In this document: piece by piece, positions 18,845-48,412 of the stretch
How positions within the stretch are numbered: the stretch's first letter is position 1
Layout: each line of letters starts with the position of its first letter
Assembly (NCBI GenBank): GCA_902761345.1
Contig: CACWKD010000015.1
Span: 1-48,412, forward strand
DNA length: 48,412 nt
Direction of reading: 5' to 3'
Source: an uncultured Ruminococcus sp.
GTDB taxonomy: Bacteria > Bacillota > Clostridia > Oscillospirales > Acutalibacteraceae
Program-made: the position numbers and the translations under genes
The notes under the pieces: model-generated
Database searches by the model: none
Told to the model about the DNA's origin: nothing
The model's input: the letters and a program-made list of their open reading frames with translations, nothing else

Positions 18845-19438
18845 TTATTTTGTCTTTCCGACTGAACCAAACGGTAATAATCGAAAAACTACTTTTCCTA
18901 ATATATGTTCATCGGCAATGCATCCGATATCCCGATTTCGTGAATCCAAAGAAATACCTCTGTTATCACCAAGTACAAAGTATCTTCCGTCGGGAATTTG
19001 TAAAGGGAACGTCAAATCACAATCTCCTTTTTCTTTGTTCATTACATAAGTTTCGCTAAGACGTTCACCATTTACAAACACATTACCGTCATTGTCCATA
19101 TCTACCCAATCGCCGGGGCACGCAATACATCTTTTTACAAGTATCTTATTATTATAGTAAAATGCTAATATATCGCCCGTTTTAAAATCAGAACCTCTTG
19201 CCGTAATAACCATATCGTCATTGTTGAGTGTCGGGGACATTGATGAGCCGTATATTCTTAGTACCGGCATTACCGAAAAGAATACAACAACTACTAATAC
19301 AATAAGAACCGATATTGATAACAATAATTTTGTCCATAAGGCAAAGGTATTGTTTTTTCGACGTTCACGAGATAACTCTTTTTCAAGATCTATGATACGT
19401 GGAAGCGACAGATTTTCTTTTTTTCTTACTTTTTCCAT
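18845..19438 (-). CDS. lepB: Type I signal peptidase, pilus-associated
   Basis: A 197-residue membrane serine protease (family S26) that removes signal peptides from exported proteins. One membrane segment (about 38-60) follows a charged cytoplasmic N-terminus. The catalytic Ser66 lies in GSSMSPTL and Lys102 in LVKRCIACPGD, forming the Ser-Lys dyad; the GDNR...DSR box near the C-terminus is also present. It lies 5 bases after the coiled-coil gene and 15 bases before the giant adhesin. Streptococcal pilus loci also carry a dedicated LepA/SipA peptidase, so it probably processes the adhesin and pilin. It differs from those partly inactive SipA proteins in keeping both dyad residues. Confidence 0.9.
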   Translation of the reverse strand: MEKVRKKENLSLPRIIDLEKELSRERRKNNTFALWTKLLLSISVLIVLVVVVFFSVMPVLRIYGSSMSPTLNNDDMVITARGSDFKTGDILAFYYNNKILVKRCIACPGDWVDMDNDGNVFVNGERLSETYVMNKEKGDCDLTFPLQIPDGRYFVLGDNRGISLDSRNRDIGCIADEHILGKVVFRLLPFGSVGKTK

Positions 19439-39914: not shown

Positions 39915-40493
39915 CTATCTATTTTTAAGCTCCTCTATTATTAATTTTACTGCGTCGCTCTTTTTCAAGCCCTTATCCATAGCTGTTTTCTCAATATAGC
40001 GATGCGCGTCATTCTCTGTCATTCCCATTTCTGTAATGAGTAAACTCTTCGCTTCCGTAACAAGCTTCAATTCTCTGAGTTTAAGTTTTAGATCGGAATT
40101 GTCTTTTCTAAGCTGCCGCATTTTAGATACAGATGAAGCAAGTATCATCAGCGTCTGCTGCAATATCGACTTTTGCAGCATTTTTGAAAGAGTGATCACA
40201 CCGTTGGGTTCAAGCTTATATGCAGTACGCTCAACAAGTTCGGGTTTTACTATCACCGCCACTGCATACTCAAAAGACAGATCCTCTGCAAGCTTTGTTC
40301 CAAATTCGTCGGACAGCGGTGTGTCGATTATTATAATATCTATCGGTGTTCTGCGCAGGGTTCTTCTTGCCTCTGCTGCATTGAACGACACAATTACAGG
40401 ATAAAACTTGTATTGCGGCAGTAATGATTTTACGAAATCTATTACCTTTGCGTTTGCGGATACTATCATCACACCGCAGCTTTTTTCCTGCAC
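39915..40493 (-). CDS. ANTAR-domain RNA-binding antiterminator
   Basis: A 192-residue regulator with a receiver-like domain (1-115), a linker coiled coil (about 115-140) and a C-terminal ANTAR three-helix domain (about 135-192; [20 protein letters not shown] is the core). The receiver keeps Asp57 (IIIIDTPL) and Lys83 but has VSAN in place of the usual acidic pair, so phosphorylation is doubtful. ANTAR domains bind paired RNA hairpins with A-N-N-G-N-N hexaloops and prevent termination. Such hairpins occur in the glnA and amt leaders, making these the likely targets. It lies 53 bases after glnA. No partner kinase is visible in the operon. Confidence 0.88.
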
Positions 40494-40546: not shown

Positions 40547-41743
40547 CTACCTTAAAAATCCCATAGGAATACTGTTTCTTATAAATTCGCTGTTTCTTGC
40601 AATTTCTGCCGCCTGCTCATACGACTGCGGCAAACGCGGCAGCTTGCTTGTAACTTCCGTTCCCACTGTATACAAATTATGATCAACTGCCTCGGGCGGT
40701 ACGAGTTTGTTTTCGATACCGTCAAGCGCAGCGGCGATCAGCAGCGTAAACGCCACATACGGGTTAATAGTGGGATCGGGCGATCTCAGCTCCATTCGGC
40801 GGTACTCGCCTTTTGCCGCAGGGATACGAATAAGCTGAGAGCGGTTTTCATGTGACCATGTTATATATTTCGGAGCTTTGTCTTTACCAAGCCTTCTATA
40901 AGATTCCTCGCACGGATTTAAAAACGCTGTCATCTCGCAAACGTGTTTTAAAAGTCCTGCAAGCACATCTGAAAAATGATCTTTTCCGTCGGCTGATTTT
41001 ACCGATATATTAATATGCAAACCGTTGCCGCTTTTATTACTGAGGGGTCGTGGAGAAAAATCAGCGCAAAGACCGTTAATATCCGACACAGACTCTACAA
41101 CCGTCTTAAAAATAAGTGCGTTGTCTGCTGAAGAAAGAGCGTCGCTGTATTTGAAGTCGATCTCGTTTTGTCCGGGTCCCATTTCATGGTGAGAGCTTTC
41201 GGGATAAATATCCATATCAAGCAGCGTAAAGCAAATGTCACGGCGGATATCCTCACCTCTGTCCTCGGGCGCTATATCCATATATCCGGCATTATCATAG
41301 GGAATTTTTGTCGCAATGCCGTTTTCGTCACGCTTGAAAAGATAAAACTCAAACTCTGCTCCAAAGTTAAAAGTAAACCCCTTGGCTTTTGCCCTCTCTA
41401 CCGTATCTTGCAGCAGCTTTCGGCTGTCAAGTTCAAACGGCGTTCCGTCCGGCTTGATTATATTGCAGAACATTCTTGCTACTCTGCCGTTATCGGGTCT
41501 CCACGGAAGTATCTGTATTGTCTGAGGTATAGGTTTCAAAAACAGATCGGAGCTTTGCTCATTGCCAAATCCATAAATACTTGACGCATCAAAAGCTATT
41601 CCGTACTCAAATGCTCGCTTTAGTTCCGAGGTCATAATCGAAATATTTTTCTGAACTCCTGCAATATCGACGAATGCAAGCTTAATAAACTTTATGTCAT
41701 TTTCCTCGACAAACTGCACAACGTCATTATAAGAATAATACAT
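40547..41743 (-). CDS. glnA: Glutamine synthetase (type I, short form)
   Basis: A 398-residue enzyme that forms glutamine from glutamate, ammonium and ATP. Recognisable are the N-terminal beta-grasp (KLAFVDIAGVQKN), DASSIYGF, the catalytic GAEFEFYLF with metal-binding Glu, GPGQNEIDFKY, GNGLHINIS, the ATP-site region KYITWSHENRSQLIRIP and RRMELRSPDPTINPY. The NLY segment carrying the regulatory tyrosine position is present. Type I enzymes are often about 440 residues, so this one is slightly short, mainly toward the C-terminus. A GAGGAG ribosome site precedes the ATG. It is the first gene of the operon, behind an attenuator leader. Confidence 0.93.
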   Translation of the reverse strand: MYYSYNDVVQFVEENDIKFIKLAFVDIAGVQKNISIMTSELKRAFEYGIAFDASSIYGFGNEQSSDLFLKPIPQTIQILPWRPDNGRVARMFCNIIKPDGTPFELDSRKLLQDTVERAKAKGFTFNFGAEFEFYLFKRDENGIATKIPYDNAGYMDIAPEDRGEDIRRDICFTLLDMDIYPESSHHEMGPGQNEIDFKYSDALSSADNALIFKTVVESVSDINGLCADFSPRPLSNKSGNGLHINISVKSADGKDHFSDVLAGLLKHVCEMTAFLNPCEESYRRLGKDKAPKYITWSHENRSQLIRIPAAKGEYRRMELRSPDPTINPYVAFTLLIAAALDGIENKLVPPEAVDHNLYTVGTEVTSKLPRLPQSYEQAAEIARNSEFIRNSIPMGFLR

Positions 41744-41808
41744 AATAAAATCTCCTCACATAATGTCGGTTTTTATTTTTGCATAATCATTAAAAGCTGT
41801 TATCAAAC

Positions 41809-41871
41809 AAAAAAAGACGTCCACTGCAAAAGGGAAATCTCTCCCCTCTGCAATGAACGCCGTTGCTCATC
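41809..41871 (-). ncRNA. glnA leader: ANTAR-type antiterminator hairpin overlapping a terminator
   Basis: On the transcribed strand GATGAGC-AACGGC-GTTCATT (41852-41871) folds as a 7-bp stem with hexaloop A-A-C-G-G-C, matching the ANTAR rule of A at position 1 and G at 4. Its 3' half is also the 5' arm of an 18-bp terminator stem (41816-41861) followed by seven T (41809-41815). The two folds exclude each other. Only one hexaloop hairpin is visible here, starting within about 10 bases of the predicted transcript start. The rest of the gap 41744-42063 is AT-rich with no gene. Confidence 0.75.
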
Positions 41872-41884
41872 TCTTTACAAAAAT

Positions 41885-41913
41885 ATTGTACTAAAAATTG
41901 TTGCATTTGTCAA
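41885..41913 (-). promoter_or_regulatory. Consensus promoter of glnA operon
   Basis: TTGACA (41908-41913), a 17-base spacer and TACAAT (41885-41890), about 145 bases before the glnA start codon. Confidence 0.85.
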
Positions 41914-42063
41914 TAACACAATTAATGAATTATAGACAACAATGAATAATATTTTTGTTTTTTTAGACGGTTATTTGCAGGATTTGATTTTAAATTATGC
42001 ATTTATAGAGCTTTTTATTTCTTATTCCGTAAAATTCACACCAAAATTTACATTAAAGCTATA

Positions 42064-43809
42064 TCAATATTGCTCCTCGTCCTGTAAAGCGTCCACACCC
42101 TCTTCGCCTGTGCGTACCTTTACTACATTTTCTACATCATAAACAAATATCTTTCCGTCACCCGTATGACCTGTGTACATTACACTCTTTGCAGCGTCTA
42201 TTACTGTCTTTACAGGTATCTTGCTAACTACTATCTCAACCTGTACTCTCGGGTGAAGTGTGATCTCCTGAACAGCGCCTCTGTAATATGACGGCTGTCC
42301 CTTCTGAACACCGCAGCCAAGTACGTTTGTTACTGTCATACCTGTTATTCCTATATCAAGCATAGCCTGCTTGAGCGACTCGAAACATTCCTGACGTACA
42401 AATATCTCTATCTTTGTAAGCTTTACATCGGACGCTGTAACTGTCTTTGGAGTTCTCAAAACAACCGGCACAGCATCGTCTATATCTACCTTTTTCTCTG
42501 TCTTTACATCTGCATTGCCATTCTTTGTAGGCGCGGACATAGTTGCAAATATCGGCTGAAAATCTGCATACGCACTGACAAGTCCATGCTCGGGGAGATC
42601 AAGTCCCTGAAGCTCTTCCTCTCTTGTTACACGAAGTCCTACTGTTTTCTTAATTACAAGGAATGTTAATGTGATCGTAATTCCGCCCCAGAGTATAACT
42701 GCTATTGCGCCAAGACACTGGATACCTATAAAATATCCTCTTGTCATATTATTTTCTGCAAGCCACTCGTTTGACGCAAACACACCTGTTAAAAGTGTGC
42801 CGAGCAAACCGTTCATAAAGTGTACGCCTACTGCGCCTACGGGATCATCAACTTTGAGAACCTTGTCAACAAACTCAATTCCGAATACAACAGCAAATGC
42901 CGAGATCAAACCTATAACTGCGGAAGCCCATACATTTACACAGTCGCAGCTTGCAGTGATCGCAACAAGTCCTGCAAGAGATCCGTTGAGAGTCATTGAT
43001 ACATCAGGCTTTTTGTAGCGTATCCATGTGATGATCATTGTAGCGAGAGTTGCAACGGCAGCCGCTAAATTTGTGTTGACAAAAACCTTTGAAGCAAGCT
43101 CGGCACCGCCGTTTGTCATAGAAACTGTCGAACCGCCGTTAAATCCAAACCAGCAGAACCAAAGAATAAATACGCCGAGAGCGCCCAGAGGAATATTGTG
43201 TCCGGGAATAGCCTTAGGCTTGCCGTCCTTACCGTACTTTCCGATACGAGCTCCAAGCATTGCAGCACCGATCAAAGCGCAAAGTCCTCCAAGCATATGT
43301 ACTGCTGTCGAACCTGCAAAATCGTGAAATCCAAGCTGTGAAAGCCAGCCGCCGCCCCAGATCCAGTGACCCGAAACAGGATATATTACAAGGCTTATTA
43401 CTGCCGAATAAATACAATATGAAGAAAACTTTGTTCTCTCTGCCATAGCTCCCGAAACGATCGTTGCGGCAGTTGCACAGAATACAGTCTGGAAAATGAA
43501 GTACGCATAAAAGCTTACTCCCTCGGGTAAGATCGCACTGTAATCGCCTCTTGTGAAAAGATCAATTCCTCCGAAAACAGCCGACTGTGTTCCGAACATA
43601 ATACCGAAACCTACCAGCCAGTAAAGCGGTGTGCCGATTGAAAAATCCATAAGGTTTTTCATAATAATGTTACCGCTGTTCTTTGAACGTGTAAAACCTG
43701 CTTCTACTGCCGCAAAGCCTGCCTGCATAAAAAATACAAGAGCTGCTCCGATCAGCGTCCACATGGTATTGACATCAGAGAACAATTCCATTACGTTTGT
43801 GTTTGTCAT
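42064..43809 (-). CDS. amt: Ammonium transporter with fused C-terminal PII domain
   Basis: About 581 residues. I chose the ATG at 43809 over a GTG at 43818. The Amt part (about 1-405) has eleven likely membrane helices, with the twin pore histidines in STAVHMLGG and GVHFMNGLLG. After a linker, residues about 463-566 form a GlnB/GlnK-type PII domain. It begins KIEIFVRQE, has a T-loop GVQKGQPSYYRGA with the conserved tyrosine, and the ATP site YTGHTGDGKIFV. GlnK normally is a separate protein that plugs the channel; here it is tethered. The gene has its own promoter and double attenuator leader and lies upstream of glnA on the same strand. Confidence 0.93.
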   Translation of the reverse strand: MTNTNVMELFSDVNTMWTLIGAALVFFMQAGFAAVEAGFTRSKNSGNIIMKNLMDFSIGTPLYWLVGFGIMFGTQSAVFGGIDLFTRGDYSAILPEGVSFYAYFIFQTVFCATAATIVSGAMAERTKFSSYCIYSAVISLVIYPVSGHWIWGGGWLSQLGFHDFAGSTAVHMLGGLCALIGAAMLGARIGKYGKDGKPKAIPGHNIPLGALGVFILWFCWFGFNGGSTVSMTNGGAELASKVFVNTNLAAAVATLATMIITWIRYKKPDVSMTLNGSLAGLVAITASCDCVNVWASAVIGLISAFAVVFGIEFVDKVLKVDDPVGAVGVHFMNGLLGTLLTGVFASNEWLAENNMTRGYFIGIQCLGAIAVILWGGITITLTFLVIKKTVGLRVTREEELQGLDLPEHGLVSAYADFQPIFATMSAPTKNGNADVKTEKKVDIDDAVPVVLRTPKTVTASDVKLTKIEIFVRQECFESLKQAMLDIGITGMTVTNVLGCGVQKGQPSYYRGAVQEITLHPRVQVEIVVSKIPVKTVIDAAKSVMYTGHTGDGKIFVYDVENVVKVRTGEEGVDALQDEEQY

Positions 43810-43884
43810 AATAACCACTTCTTTTCTTATTTTTTAATATATATGAACATACTGCCGTTATTAGTCGGCGTATGGAATTTCCTC

Positions 43885-43957
43885 AAAAAAAGATACGGCA
43901 ACGGGGCTGAGAGCTTAGACTTTAACCACAAGCTCCCGACAACCCCATTGCCGCCGG
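43885..43957 (-). ncRNA. amt leader, second ANTAR-type attenuator
   Basis: CCGGCGGC-AATGGG-GTTGTCGG (43936-43957) forms an 8-bp stem with hexaloop A-A-T-G-G-G. Its sequence is shared with the 5' arm of a long terminator: CGGCAATGGGGTT pairs with AGCCCCGTTGCCG, with an inner GGAGCTT/AAGCTCTC stem, and a T-run follows at 43885-43891. Antiterminator and terminator cannot form together. Confidence 0.8.
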
Positions 43958-43969
43958 TATTAATCGTAC

Positions 43970-44020
43970 AAAAAAAGAAACAGCTATGACAAACCCATAA
44001 GTTCGACGTCATTGCCGCTT
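43970..44020 (-). ncRNA. amt leader, first ANTAR-type attenuator
   Basis: AAGCGGC-AATGAC-GTCGAACTT (43999-44020) can form a hairpin with hexaloop A-A-T-G-A-C (a 4-bp stem extended by 3 bp past a 2-base bulge). The same bases, AGCGGCAATGAC, also pair at 11 of 12 positions with GTCATAGCTGTT (43979-43990), followed by TCTTTTTTT. That makes a first, separate terminator upstream of the one at 43885. The remainder of the gap 43810-44192 shows no gene. Confidence 0.65.
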
Positions 44021-44032
44021 CTCTATGTATGT

Positions 44033-44061
44033 ATTATATTCTTTTTTTCCCGAATTGTCAA
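44033..44061 (-). promoter_or_regulatory. Perfect consensus promoter of amt
   Basis: TTGACA (44056-44061), a 17-base spacer and TATAAT (44033-44038). The predicted transcript begins just before the first leader hairpin. Confidence 0.88.
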
Positions 44062-44192
44062 GCTGTTATCCGTCTTTTACTTCAAATGTCGTAAAAATGA
44101 CGTATTTTATTCACGAACCACTACTTAATAAACAAATAATAAACTTTTGCTCAAACCGAAGGCAGACTTCTGCTCTTTTCTGGACAACCTTG

Positions 44193-45041: not shown

Positions 45042-46607
45042 TTACTTGTTTATAATATGGTAAACAATGTTGTTTGCAAATACAATATCCGTAGTATTTT
45101 CATCTGAATACTTTGCAAATGTACCCGTTACCTCGCTTCCGTCCCACTCGTATATAACGCCTAATCCGCACGCTGTACCGTCTGAAAATACGCCTGTGTA
45201 TCCGTGGTCAAAGTACAGTATCGTTCCTTTTCCCTCGGGCTTGCCGTTAATCAGCATTCCGGAATATGCGCCGCCGTTATACTCTTGCTCGACAACATAG
45301 CTGTTGCCGTCTATGTAAAGATTATACGGAGTACCTTTCATATTCTCGCTTACAGTAAGCGGTTCAAGCTCCATAAGCCTTACTTTCATATTCTTAAACG
45401 GCTCATTATCCTTAAAGATACCCTCAAAGCGTTTTTCTCCGTACTCGGTAAACTGACAGCCCATACCCTCATGTCTGCCGTTCTTTATATGACCCTCATA
45501 CTTCAATGTCATACCGTCATGAGAATACTCTCTCTTATATTTGCACTGTCCGTTAGTATACAGACACTCTCCTATAATAATTCCGTCAAGCACCTCGTTT
45601 ACTCTGCCGTTTAGTACGCCTTGTCTGAAACTGCCTACATACCTCGGCTCGCCAAGCTCATACAATACGCCCTCACCCTCGTAAAGGTTGTCTTTCCACA
45701 TTCCGCAATAAATGAGTTCGCCGTTCTCGTCATAGCTCCTGCCGAAACCGCAGCGCATATTGTCATCAAATTCGCCCGAGAATATACATCTTCCGTTCCT
45801 GAACTCTGTTCCGTTTCCCTTGCGTATTCCGTAGACCCATTCGCCGTCATAGACCTTTTCGCCGTTTTCGTAGCCTACTCCTCTTCCGTTAAATCTGCCT
45901 TTGTCCCATTCGCCCTGATAAATAAGCTCGCCGTCTTTATTGTAGCCTAAAAGAACTCCGACAGGATCTCCGTTCGAGAATGTTCCTTGACACCACGATC
46001 CGTTTTTCAAATTGTACAGCTTTCCCTCGCCGTTATAACGGTTATTTAGCCACTGACCCTCGTACAGAACTTTACCTTTTTTGGTTGTAACTACCGCATA
46101 ACCCTGTACTCTGCCGCCGACAAATTCTCCTACTATCTTATAGCCGTTCTGAAGGTTCAGCATACCCTCGCCGTCGTACTTTCCGTTTTTCCACTCGCCC
46201 GAATATACTACAAGTCCCTGCTTATCATACTGTGTACCAACGCCGTTTCTTGTACCTTTCTTCCAGCTGCCGTTATACACGAGGTTGCCCATTGAGTCAA
46301 AAACTGTGCCTTTCTCGGACAACACGTCATTTTCCCAGCGTGATACAAATACTCCTCCGTCCTTTGGATTATAGAGCATACCTACGCCTTCTCGTCTGCC
46401 GTTAGCCCAGCGGCCCGCAAATGAAAGCTCGCCGTTATTGTCAAACTTTGCTCCCATACCGATCGGGTTATCGTTTTCCCAGCCGCCTACATACATAGTG
46501 CGGTCTTTATGGTTGAATGATATACCTACTCCGTGTTTATGGTTGTTTTTCCAGTCGCCTACATAACAAACCTTGCCGTTTCTGTAATAATACACGCCAA
46601 AGCCGTT
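45042..46607 (-). CDS. MORN-repeat protein, 5' truncated by contig join
   Basis: At least 517 residues, nearly all made of about twenty MORN repeats of 21-24 residues (typical unit YxGxWxxGxxxGxGxxYxxxG, for example VYSGEWKNGKYDGEGML). No signal peptide is visible because the true N-terminus is missing. The frame continues past the GTG at 46593 through NGFG-VYYYRNGKV and then enters unrelated sequence. MORN repeats usually mediate membrane-lipid or protein contacts. Its role beside a mechanosensitive channel is unknown. Confidence 0.85.
   Translation of the reverse strand, partial: NGFGVYYYRNGKVCYVGDWKNNHKHGVGISFNHKDRTMYVGGWENDNPIGMGAKFDNNGELSFAGRWANGRREGVGMLYNPKDGGVFVSRWENDVLSEKGTVFDSMGNLVYNGSWKKGTRNGVGTQYDKQGLVVYSGEWKNGKYDGEGMLNLQNGYKIVGEFVGGRVQGYAVVTTKKGKVLYEGQWLNNRYNGEGKLYNLKNGSWCQGTFSNGDPVGVLLGYNKDGELIYQGEWDKGRFNGRGVGYENGEKVYDGEWVYGIRKGNGTEFRNGRCIFSGEFDDNMRCGFGRSYDENGELIYCGMWKDNLYEGEGVLYELGEPRYVGSFRQGVLNGRVNEVLDGIIIGECLYTNGQCKYKREYSHDGMTLKYEGHIKNGRHEGMGCQFTEYGEKRFEGIFKDNEPFKNMKVRLMELEPLTVSENMKGTPYNLYIDGNSYVVEQEYNGGAYSGMLINGKPEGKGTILYFDHGYTGVFSDGTACGLGVIYEWDGSEVTGTFAKYSDENTTDIVFANNIVYHIINK
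46596..46607. other. Chimeric junction: Clostridia sequence joined to Bacteroidota sequence
   Basis: The 12 bases AACGGCTTTGGC (minus strand) read as NGFG in the MORN repeat frame and as part of GTALA in the GH3 beta-glucosidase frame. Both proteins make family sense right up to this point and lose it beyond. A short shared string is what a mis-assembly or chimeric read would use. Confidence 0.85.
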
Positions 46608-46954
46608 CCTACGGGGAAGCCCGTGCAGTAGTATGTATTGTTGTCATTTTGTCGGGTAGGTGAGATTCGTACACCCGCAGGTCCGTCTGTCAGCACTGTT
46701 GAAGGAATACCCAGACGAGGAATTGCCTGCGTGTTGCCAGCAGCCCCAGGAACCTGATGTGAGTGTCCGCCCAGCATACCGTTAGCTTGGTTTGGAGCCG
46801 CCTGCCGGTTCGAGCCGACCACCAGAGTTGCCTTCTCTTCGAGCGTCATAGCTTTCAGTACTTCATCAATATTGTTAGCCTTCAGAGAAACTTGAGCAGA
46901 TAAGTTCATTGCGGTCATAAACAGCAATACAGGAAGAATGATTAGTCGTTTCAT
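46596..46954 (-). CDS. GH3 beta-glucosidase-like protein, N-terminal fragment
   Basis: About 119 authentic residues remain. A signal peptide (MKRLIILPVLLFMTAMNLSA) precedes the start of a glycoside hydrolase family 3 domain: VLKAMTLEEKATLVVG, IPRLGIPSTVLTDGPAGVRI and TYYCTGFPVGTALA. Family members continue with a Trp/Asn-rich segment here, but this sequence changes to the reverse frame of the MORN gene (CIITETARFVM). The catalytic residues are therefore absent. Codon use and signal peptide look Bacteroidota (Prevotella-like). Confidence 0.85.
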
Positions 46955-46998
46955 GATATAAAAAAGTAAAAAGGTATTTGATTAAACATGGTTTGTAG

Positions 46999-47034
46999 AA
47001 AAAAAGCACTCAGGGATTAACCTCATGAGTGCTT
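46999..47034 (-). terminator. Terminator of efp
   Basis: AAGCACTCATGAGG and CCCTGAGTGCTT form a strong stem with a 5-base loop, followed by TTTTTTT on the minus strand. Confidence 0.85.
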
Positions 47035-47055
47035 CGTATTTGTTGCTAGAGTCTG

Positions 47056-47628
47056 TTATGACTTACGAGAAACGTAGCTACCGTCACGCGTGTCAACTTC
47101 GATTAAGTCACCCTCGTTGATGAAGAGAGGCACACGAATCTCTACACCCGTTTCTAGCGTAGCTGGCTTCGTGGCGTTGGTAGCTGTATCGCCCTTCAAT
47201 CCAGGTTCAGTGTAAGTCACCTTCAGCACAATTTTAACAGGAGCTTCAGCCGTCAAGATAGCACCCGTCTGGTCGTCGATTGAAGCCATCACCATTGTTT
47301 CGCCTTCCTTTAGGAAGTCGCCACCAGTGATCAGATCCTTGTTGATGTTAATCTGCTCGTAAGTCTCAGTGTTCATGAACACCATGTCCTCACCCTCCTT
47401 ATAAAGGTACTGGAACTGTTGGTGCGAAACCGTCACATCGTCCAACTTAGCCGAAACAATCCATGTACGTTCCAATACACGTCCATCCTCCACGTTGCGG
47501 AGTTTGGTAATCATCACTGTGTTACCCTTACCAGGTTTCTTGTGAAGGAAGTCAATCACTACCCAAATTTTGCCGTCATCGAGGCGGAGGCAAACGCCTT
47601 TCTTGATATCACCTGCTAAAATAGCCAT
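47056..47628 (-). CDS. efp: Translation elongation factor P
   Basis: A 190-residue tRNA-shaped protein that helps ribosomes form Pro-Pro bonds. The N-terminal KOW-like domain carries the loop HKKPGKGNTVM with the modifiable lysine position. Two OB-type domains follow, ending in the family signature region GVEIRVPLFINEGDLIEVDTRDGSYVSR (key IxVPxFIxxGDxIxVDTxxGxYxxR). Length is normal. It has its own Bacteroidota promoter and is divergent from rpmH. Confidence 0.96.
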   Translation of the reverse strand: MAILAGDIKKGVCLRLDDGKIWVVIDFLHKKPGKGNTVMITKLRNVEDGRVLERTWIVSAKLDDVTVSHQQFQYLYKEGEDMVFMNTETYEQININKDLITGGDFLKEGETMVMASIDDQTGAILTAEAPVKIVLKVTYTEPGLKGDTATNATKPATLETGVEIRVPLFINEGDLIEVDTRDGSYVSRKS

Positions 47629-47717
47629 AATTCAAAAATTCAGTTTTACTAATTTACGATTTATTTTAATAATTCACTGTTCACTACATTTGCGAGCATG
47701 TTGCCCTAAATCGAGTA

Positions 47718-47748
47718 CAAAATTAGGACTTTTTCATAAAATAGCAAA
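47718..47748 (-). promoter_or_regulatory. Bacteroidota-type promoter of efp
   Basis: TTTG (47745-47748), exactly 19 bases, then TAATTTTG (47718-47725): a full match to the Bacteroidota consensus TTTG-N19-TAnnTTTG. Confidence 0.8.
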
Positions 47749-47774
47749 AAAAGTAAGCAAAAAACCGCTAATTT

Positions 47775-47806
47775 TTTGGTCGATTTATTTAAAATCACTA
47801 ATTTTG
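47775..47806 (+). promoter_or_regulatory. Bacteroidota-type promoter of rpmH
   Basis: TTTG (47775-47778), 20 bases, then TAATTTTG (47799-47806), about 79 bases before the rpmH start. It faces the efp promoter. Confidence 0.75.
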
Positions 47807-47884
47807 CACGCTGTTTGTGCAATGAAACAAACGAAATACAAAAAAACGGCAGATACAATAATAAAAAATTAAAAAGATAAAGCA

Positions 47885-48043
47885 ATGAAAAGAACATTCC
47901 AACCACACAATCGTAAGAGAATCAACAAGCACGGTTTCCGTCAGCGTATGACTACTAAGAACGGTCGTCGTGTATTGTCAATGCGTCGTAAGAAAGGACG
48001 TAAGTCTCTTACCGTATCATGCGAATTCCACGGTAAGAAGTAA
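47885..48043 (+). CDS. rpmH: Ribosomal protein L34
   Basis: A 52-residue, very basic protein of the large ribosomal subunit. It begins [19 protein letters not shown] and contains [20 protein letters not shown], both diagnostic of L34. The start is fixed by the conserved N-terminus. It has its own promoter and terminator and is the only supported plus-strand gene in the window. Confidence 0.96.
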
Positions 48044-48065
48044 TACCGAATCGCTGAAACCACAG

Positions 48066-48094
48066 AGGATGAGCCAAAAGCCCATCCTTTTTTT
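48066..48094 (+). terminator. Terminator of rpmH
   Basis: AGGATGAGC and GCCCATCCT pair (one A-C mismatch) around a short A-rich loop, followed by TTTTTTT. Confidence 0.8.
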
Positions 48095-48213
48095 GTTTTA
48101 GGTTTGACCTATCGTTCTTCCGTGAGCCATTAACCCTGAACCGTTCTTCTGTTTCTTATAAAGGAAATCCGAAATCTCTCCTTTTTCTCTTTCACATTCC
48201 TACTGTTCTACAG

Positions 48214-48412
48214 CTAGTGCAAGTTTGTGCTGATATGGGAGGATTTCAGCTCGAAAACCAAATATGAGCTATATTCTTTTAGCAAGCCGTTAGCCAACCA
48301 AAAATCAAATTGCTGAAGGGGAAGGCGCATTCTGTCAGGTAATTTATGCACAGGCAGCATCATGATGCCATAATGTCTCCGAAGCTGGAATTTGTTTCCA
48401 ATCATTTCAACT
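48214..48412 (-). CDS. Unrecognised open frame at the right edge, partial
   Basis: The frame is open from the window edge to a stop at 48214, with an ATG at 48405 that need not be the real start. It encodes at least 63 residues, mildly basic and hydrophobic, with no motif I recognise. It may be the C-terminal end of a gene or chance. The stretch 48099-48213 before it shows nothing I can name. Confidence 0.2.
   Translation of the reverse strand, partial: VEMIGNKFQLRRHYGIMMLPVHKLPDRMRLPLQQFDFWLANGLLKEYSSYLVFELKSSHISTNLH

Follow-up and report, generated by a model that had tools for sequence, protein, structure and literature searches.

Two predicted single-hexaloop ANTAR-type attenuators in series in the amt leader of an uncultured Ruminococcus

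Introduction

How would an ANTAR protein read a leader in which two hexaloop hairpins stand well apart, each overlapping a terminator of its own? This is the question raised by the leader of amt, the ammonium transporter gene, in an uncultured Ruminococcus sp. (assembly GCA_902761345.1), of which positions 1 to 48,412 of contig CACWKD010000015.1 were analyzed. This whole stretch of 48,412 nucleotides (nt) is called the window; all positions are those of the window unless another contig is named, and the amt leader and its neighboring genes lie on its minus strand. According to present models, ANTAR antitermination requires two hexaloops a few bases apart. In the eut system of Enterococcus faecalis the hexaloops are 5-12 nt apart, and induction is lost when the first is deleted and drops drastically when the linker is 3 or 14 nt long (PMC3369931); extending the linker by 20 nt abolishes antitermination by EutV (PMC3369931, PMC8934654), and a hexaloop spacing of 2-25 nt was allowed in PMC8164766. 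Here we argue that the amt leader probably consists of two independent, complete, single-hexaloop ANTAR-type attenuators behind one promoter, whose read-through would multiply.

Results

An initial annotation of this DNA had placed a perfect promoter ahead of the leader and, behind it, two hairpins with A-N-N-G-N-N loops, each sharing bases with its own T-run terminator. The promoter is indeed perfect (Table 1), and folding bears out the rest, since the two hairpins, P1 (loop AATGAC) and P2 (loop AATGGG), each use bases in the 5′ arm of their own terminator, T1 and T2, respectively, with T1 lying in the gap of about 46-50 nt between P1 and P2. The same detector that finds two such units in the real leader was run on 2000 dinucleotide-preserving shuffles of it, of which 1999 had no unit, one had a single unit and none had two. 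Nascent folding (minimum-energy folds in 4-nt steps, with 12 nt hidden and the start assumed at 44026) gives P1 with the polymerase at about +38 to +46 and then T1, followed by P2 at about +106 to +134 and then T2. With the start so assumed, the U-tract of T1 (about +57) is transcribed before P2 (about +70 to +91) exists, and gate 1 would therefore be decided before P2 is made.

A separate promoter for unit 2 was considered and judged a chance match: the sequence at 43992-43963, across the end of T1, matches at 9 of 12 positions with an 18-nt spacer, and the best match there in the congener G196 scores 8 and lies further off. Rfam gave no family at its gathering score in the whole window; for 41780-44120 it listed, to E 5, two matches that fall far short of their gathering scores, with no T-box or riboswitch.

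That two gates stand in a row, each with a hexaloop of its own, unlike the known element, in which two hairpins share one terminator, was the central proposal of the initial annotation, and the arrangement recurs in relatives. A census was made of 159 amt loci, distinct in the first 400 nt of amt and covering 1.80 Mb (167 loci before identical ones were removed), drawn from the window, 30 loci from 300 family genomes (143 with an amt match), the best 80 of 577 named records and 60 further regions; this is a part of the existing diversity, with near relatives still included. Both strands were scanned for terminator hairpins, which numbered 1958; those with a 5′ arm overlapping a hairpin with any six-base loop were taken as units and sorted by loop bases 1 and 4, the 15 classes other than A/G serving as internal control. 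The A/G class, i.e., that of the A-N-N-G-N-N hexaloop, holds 254 such terminators, against 17-61 per other class (mean 33), and 30 tandem pairs, against 0 in the 500 clusters of the other classes. A first, stricter census, limited to 700 nt upstream of amt, had given 47 A/G units for 227 terminators, with at most 4 in each other class; it missed the locus L117, and the rule was widened for that reason. With a relaxed scan of 167 loci (the 159 and 8 picked for looking promising), 36 tandem A/G leaders were found (30 in the 159 and 6 in the added 8), against 2 for all other classes together. The genes behind these 36, named from their first residues, are 19 amt, 12 glutamine synthetase III, three glutamate dehydrogenase, one purC and one dapF-like. 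Among the A/G loops AAAGGC is the most frequent, and most are closed by a C-G pair (91% C, 91% G). Gates also come in other numbers, the leaders of relatives carrying one, two or three: a single hexaloop is present in 193 of the 223 A/G clusters of the census (background included), and the locus L198 has, before a glutamine synthetase III-like gene, three consecutive matches to R1, a covariance model of the hexaloop-terminator unit, only one or two of which were listed by the hairpin scans.

Some individual leaders deserve a separate description. In L031 and L118, upstream of amt, three consecutive units can be made out by eye, the first with the loop GATGGT. Together with GATGAT, found in L033 and as a eut P1, this suggests that position A1 of the hexaloop can be G. 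The two tandem units of L039 (230-440) have hexaloop stems that are identical, and each is served by a separate 12-of-12 promoter, which looks like a duplicated promoter and gate and may hint at how tandem gates originate.

Does each gate work with one hexaloop, or is a partner hidden nearby? When an A/G partner was looked for 3-16 nt upstream with lenient criteria, it was present for 7 of the 254 units, the other classes having a mean of 4.5 and a maximum of 9. Across three rules for the stem and two ranges for the gap, the A/G class was never above the highest other class, so that a hidden recruitment hairpin was rejected. The same script finds a partner in three of five units at eut control loci, a fourth having the partner loop GATGAT and the fifth none; this control is small (five units in 3 of 11 eut regions, from 10 of the 11 EutB-bearing genomes of the class).

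The position of the promoters points the same way. A promoter (score of at least 10, within 107 nt) precedes 132 of the 223 first units; in the control classes this is true of 20 of 497 units. Where it is present before a first unit, the P stem begins 5-22 nt after the −10 hexamer in 118 of the 132 cases, most often 9-12 nt. Transcription starts about 7 nt after the −10, so that P would be the first thing transcribed and there would be no room for a partner. Moreover, a promoter stands directly before unit 1 in 35 of the 36 tandem leaders and before unit 2 in three, which puts the gates in series.

Set against the classical type of ANTAR target, the window thus offers the A1/G4 hexaloop (in both amt hairpins and in the hairpin before glnA), mutual exclusion of hairpin and terminator (by folding and covariation) and an ANTAR protein in the same genome, one gene for it lying 3.4 kb downstream of the amt leader, whereas a close hexaloop pair serving one terminator is absent. 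As this pair is the defining feature, the leader was filed as a variant outside the dual-hexaloop family. What it does hold is two complete sensor-terminator units with one promoter before one gene, i.e., the tandem, pseudo-cooperative arrangement.

If the gates are read by a protein, they should leave a footprint in the way their sequences change. Between the window and G196 all 12 pairs of P1 and P2 are unchanged; among the 20 pairs of T1, 12 are the same, four changed on one side, three on both sides and one is broken, and among the 25 of T2, 18 are the same, six changed on one side, one on both and none is broken. Conserved hairpins beside drifting but compensated terminators are as predicted for a protein-read attenuator. 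Of the conservation in relatives on which the initial annotation had staked its case, therefore, the hexaloop hairpins and the compensated terminators are kept in G196, whilst L033 has one unit only. The latter is the nearest named record among the best 80 of 577 (a Clostridia metagenome-assembled genome from dairy-cattle rumen, with an Amt 92% identical), and gate number does vary here, with two gates in G196 and in the genome G268.

This comparison was made because the other test of conservation used 61 aligned units picked by pairing rules. In these, 84.7% of the cells of the P helix are paired, with 74 two-sided changes against 26.8 when shuffled, and 87.6% of those of the T helix, with 117 against 35.9. 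The values of both helices fall clearly when the partner is shifted by 1 to 3 columns. Taken together, both the P and the T folds look to be under selection.

Units and ANTAR genes also tend to occur together. At E≤0.001, R1 has matches in 90 of 171 ANTAR-bearing genomes, against 8 of 129 without a detected ANTAR gene, and at E≤0.01 in 116 of 171 against 28 of 129; exclusion of 22 seed genomes leaves 75 of 149 against 8 of 129 at E≤0.001, although seeds from named records may remain among the rest.

Table 1. Positions of the predicted elements and genes of the amt-glnA region in the window
Feature	Position	Strand	Remarks
−35 hexamer TTGACA, amt promoter	44056..44061	−	12/12 match together with −10; spacer 17 nt
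−10 hexamer TATAAT, amt promoter	44033..44038	−	transcription start inferred near 44026
P1 hairpin CGGC[AATGAC]GTCG, predicted antiterminator of gate 1	44004..44017	−	4 pairs, one G-U; unchanged in G196
T1 intrinsic terminator, gate 1	43970..44024	−	fold about −21 kcal/mol; seven T at end
P2 hairpin CCGGCGGC[AATGGG]GTTGTCGG, predicted antiterminator of gate 2	43936..43957	−	8 pairs, three G-U; unchanged in G196
T2 intrinsic terminator, gate 2	43885..43955	−	fold −37.9 kcal/mol; seven T at end
amt, ammonium transporter with C-terminal P-II domain, behind both gates	42064..43809	−	Pfam PF00909 402 bits, PF00543 77 bits
glnA promoter TTGACA-17-TACAAT	41885..41913	−	sequence match
glnA leader hairpin ATGAGC[AACGGC]GTTCAT, single hexaloop	41853..41870	−	14 nt after −10
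glnA leader terminator, 5′ arm overlapping the hexaloop hairpin	41809..41861	−	R1 match 29.6 bits
glnA, glutamine synthetase	40547..41743	−	Pfam
Receiver-like + ANTAR protein, candidate leader reader	39915..40493	−	Pfam ANTAR 42.2 bits; receiver 22.4 bits, below cut-off

The genes around the leader are listed in Table 1, with the start codon of amt taken as the ATG at 43809 (the listed open reading frame opens at the GTG at 43818). Single-hexaloop gates are common in this group, and the glnA leader, 2 kb downstream of the amt leader, is one of them; given its own promoter in the gap between the two genes, transcription of glnA can probably proceed independently of amt. Beyond the ANTAR gene the minus strand continues with what we take, from their sequences, to be CTP synthase and then the large glutamate synthase subunit. 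A third single-hexaloop unit of the same genome (G000), CAGC[AAAGGC]GCTG, lies on contig C21 (11544-11595, minus strand; locus L197), presumably before a glutamine synthetase III-like gene, and units of this type are also present in G196 (L213) and G268 (L214). Two weak matches to R1 elsewhere in the window, at 19335-19384 on the plus strand (14.6 bits, E 0.28) and 19053-19101 on the minus strand (11.2 bits, E 1.8), are probably due to chance.

The end of the window, 46559-48412, is of a different character. It holds a gene for elongation factor P (EF-P) at 47056-47628, whilst contig C13 holds another, better-scoring one, and an open reading frame of 131 aa (46559-46954) with no Pfam match. 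We take this EF-P to be Bacteroidota-like and the open reading frame to resemble the first part of a beta-glucosidase from Bacteroidota. The stretch may be of foreign origin, either as a chimeric contig end or by transfer; the amt leader lies outside it.

Discussion

The interpretation that we favor is as follows. In each gate the nascent RNA would first form the small A-N-N-G-N-N hexaloop hairpin; an active ANTAR protein bound to it would tie up the bases of the terminator stem and let the polymerase pass, whereas an unbound hairpin would yield to the terminator, with a stop at about 57 nt (gate 1) or 142 nt (gate 2) from the inferred start. One hexaloop would suffice per gate, and with gates in series total read-through would be the product of two probabilities, giving less leak and a steeper, pseudo-cooperative response, the argument made for riboswitches in tandem that share one ligand (PMC9481103). 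Whilst the comparison of sequences shows the anatomy of the gates, their recurrence and order, the covariation of both structures, partners no more frequent than chance and the co-occurrence with ANTAR genes, the binding itself, the opening of the gate by binding and nitrogen shortage as the signal are what would be expected from ANTAR biology (PMC3369931, PMC8934654, PMC3369936) and from NitR (cited in PMC6316151). The sharper control that the initial annotation hoped for from two gates is plausible on the multiplicative argument.

Could the two hairpins be the halves of a classical target with a long linker? P1 would then recruit the ANTAR dimer, which would move to P2 and open T2, T1 being incidental. 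The leader does carry two A1/G4 hexaloops, as in the recruitment and transfer described for EutV (PMC8934654, Discussion), but T1 is maintained by compensation in G196, a single hexaloop is all that the glnA leader and most census clusters have, and the distance from P to P, 50 nt here and 36 to 232 nt over the 36 tandem leaders, exceeds what EutV tolerates, all of which makes this reading unlikely. The same range of gaps, combined with the order of synthesis, led us to reject a single dimer bridging P1 and P2, and leaves unsupported the suggestion of the initial annotation that one dimer on both hairpins might open both gates; Walshe et al., too, argue that one dimer is unable to hold both loops of one RNA simultaneously (PMC8934654, Discussion).

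Alternatively, the leader might act as an AND gate, with two different ANTAR paralogues taking one hairpin each. The loops AATGAC and AATGGG do differ, and there are two ANTAR matches in the genome of the window (the second gene being on contig C8, locus L001), three in G196 and two in G268. Such a scheme could not be general, however, since a single ANTAR match is found in 22 of 28 genomes with tandem units (hand-made list), and seven of the 36 tandem leaders have the same loop twice; we regard it as very unlikely.

There is similarly little probability that the two terminators have no regulatory meaning and act as a fail-safe, or that the short terminated RNA titrates the ANTAR protein like EutX. 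Tandem terminators are common, which counts for the former, but the enrichment of one hexaloop class and the count of 30 tandem pairs against none are unexpected for plain terminators. Sponges of the EutX type that bear hexaloops are known (PMC8934654, Discussion), but in the terminated RNA of this leader the hexaloop would be paired within the terminator stem, and should make a poor sponge.

Several results weigh against two independent gates of this kind. In the leader itself, P1 is short (four pairs, one of them G-U) and predicted to fold only during about +38 to +46; T1 and T2 both come from folding and are absent from the list of a simple terminator scan, which admits only plain stems with short loops; and R1, which finds unit 1 (23.3 bits), misses unit 2, whose terminator exceeds the length of the model. 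In the relatives, L033 lacks the second gate in spite of its similar Amt, its one unit having the loop GATGAT; judged from the other classes, background should account for about 33 of the 254 A/G units, and the covariation counts are biased towards the P and T structures by the way in which their units were picked. As for the reader, at E≤0.01 R1 finds nothing in 55 of the 171 ANTAR-bearing genomes (81 at E≤0.001), matches are present at these two thresholds in 28 and 8 of the 129 genomes with no ANTAR gene detected, with clear units in G261, for example, and the ANTAR protein of the window has Glu at the position of EutV Lys147. Given this last difference, it may be the C8 paralogue that actually reads the leaders.

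Who might the readers be in general? Tyr164 of EutV stacks on loop base G4 (PMC8934654, Discussion). Among 19 ANTAR sequences compared, 16 are non-EutV-like (those of the window, its C8 paralogue and fetched loci); all 16 have His at the position of Tyr164 and keep Met172, and 15 of them lack Arg142, which L101 keeps. Tyr at 164 is found in the other three, EutV, L187 (at a eut locus) and L173. Within this small sample, the comparison points to a distinct subfamily. On balance, we lean towards a branch of single-hexaloop ANTAR proteins in the Clostridia (with His for Tyr164 and a mostly non-basic residue for Arg142) that would read 5′-terminal hexaloops of nitrogen-gene transcripts and open their terminators with no recruitment hairpin, one, two or three copies setting leak and steepness for each gene; the odds of this wider proposal seem to us only slightly better than even.

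The receiver-like domains of the window protein and of L001 seemingly lack the acidic pair that is usual close to the N terminus, and both may be pseudo-receivers that are not driven by a kinase. The ANTAR gene of L001 has, as we take it, a prephenate dehydratase-like gene on one side and, on the other, one that encodes dockerin-like repeats, which suggests that the organism is a cellulosome-bearing fiber degrader.

ANTAR control of amt and gln genes, as well as several ANTAR attenuators in one transcription unit, is already in print (PMC3369931). In the PMC texts searched, we recognized no paper on ANTAR attenuators of Clostridia with one hexaloop each, whether alone or in tandem, so that it is the single-hexaloop, 5′-terminal attenuator and its tandem arrays that were not found in the literature searched; PMC2965389, in a search by terms, mentions neither ammonium, glutamine, glutamate nor glnA or ANTAR. 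ANTAR searches built on two hairpins would be expected to overlook such gates. Walshe et al. (2022) ask for bioinformatic and experimental work on the roles of single hexaloops (PMC8934654), and the leaders described in this work would provide many natural examples of predicted attenuators with a single hexaloop, working under the full time pressure of transcription, together with a candidate reader of distinct appearance. Moreover, as the number of gates before the same kinds of genes can be one, two or three, pseudo-cooperative attenuation by a protein becomes directly testable.

Compared to known systems, the amt leader shares with the dual-hexaloop leaders of eut, nasF and amiE (Ramesh et al. 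2012, PMC3369931) the A1/G4 hexaloop hairpin overlapping an intrinsic terminator, and the targets predicted for that family include ammonium transporters and glutamate and glutamine synthases. It differs in that the targets of EutV, NasR and AmiR need both hairpins for one terminator, whereas here there is one hexaloop per terminator, mostly 5′-terminal where a promoter is recognizable. Several attenuators per unit, as here, are found in Desulfotomaculum acetoxidans, with at least 13 in six transcription units (PMC3369931, Figure 9 legend); these were found with a dual-hairpin model. A parallel in function is NitR from Clostridium saccharobutylicum (Stutz et al. 2007, cited in PMC6316151), an ANTAR-family antiterminator that induces glutamine synthetase and glutamate synthase (GS/GOGAT) genes on nitrogen limitation. 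At the level of binding, the minimal motif of EutV (Walshe et al. 2022, PMC8934654) makes one hexaloop the minimal binding unit of an ANTAR dimer, as would be the single loops of these gates. In overall design, finally, the leader resembles tandem riboswitches, such as those for thiamine pyrophosphate (PMC9481103), where two complete units of sensor and platform precede one gene and a steeper response is predicted, with the difference that the sensor is a ligand-binding RNA in the riboswitches and a predicted protein-binding hairpin here.
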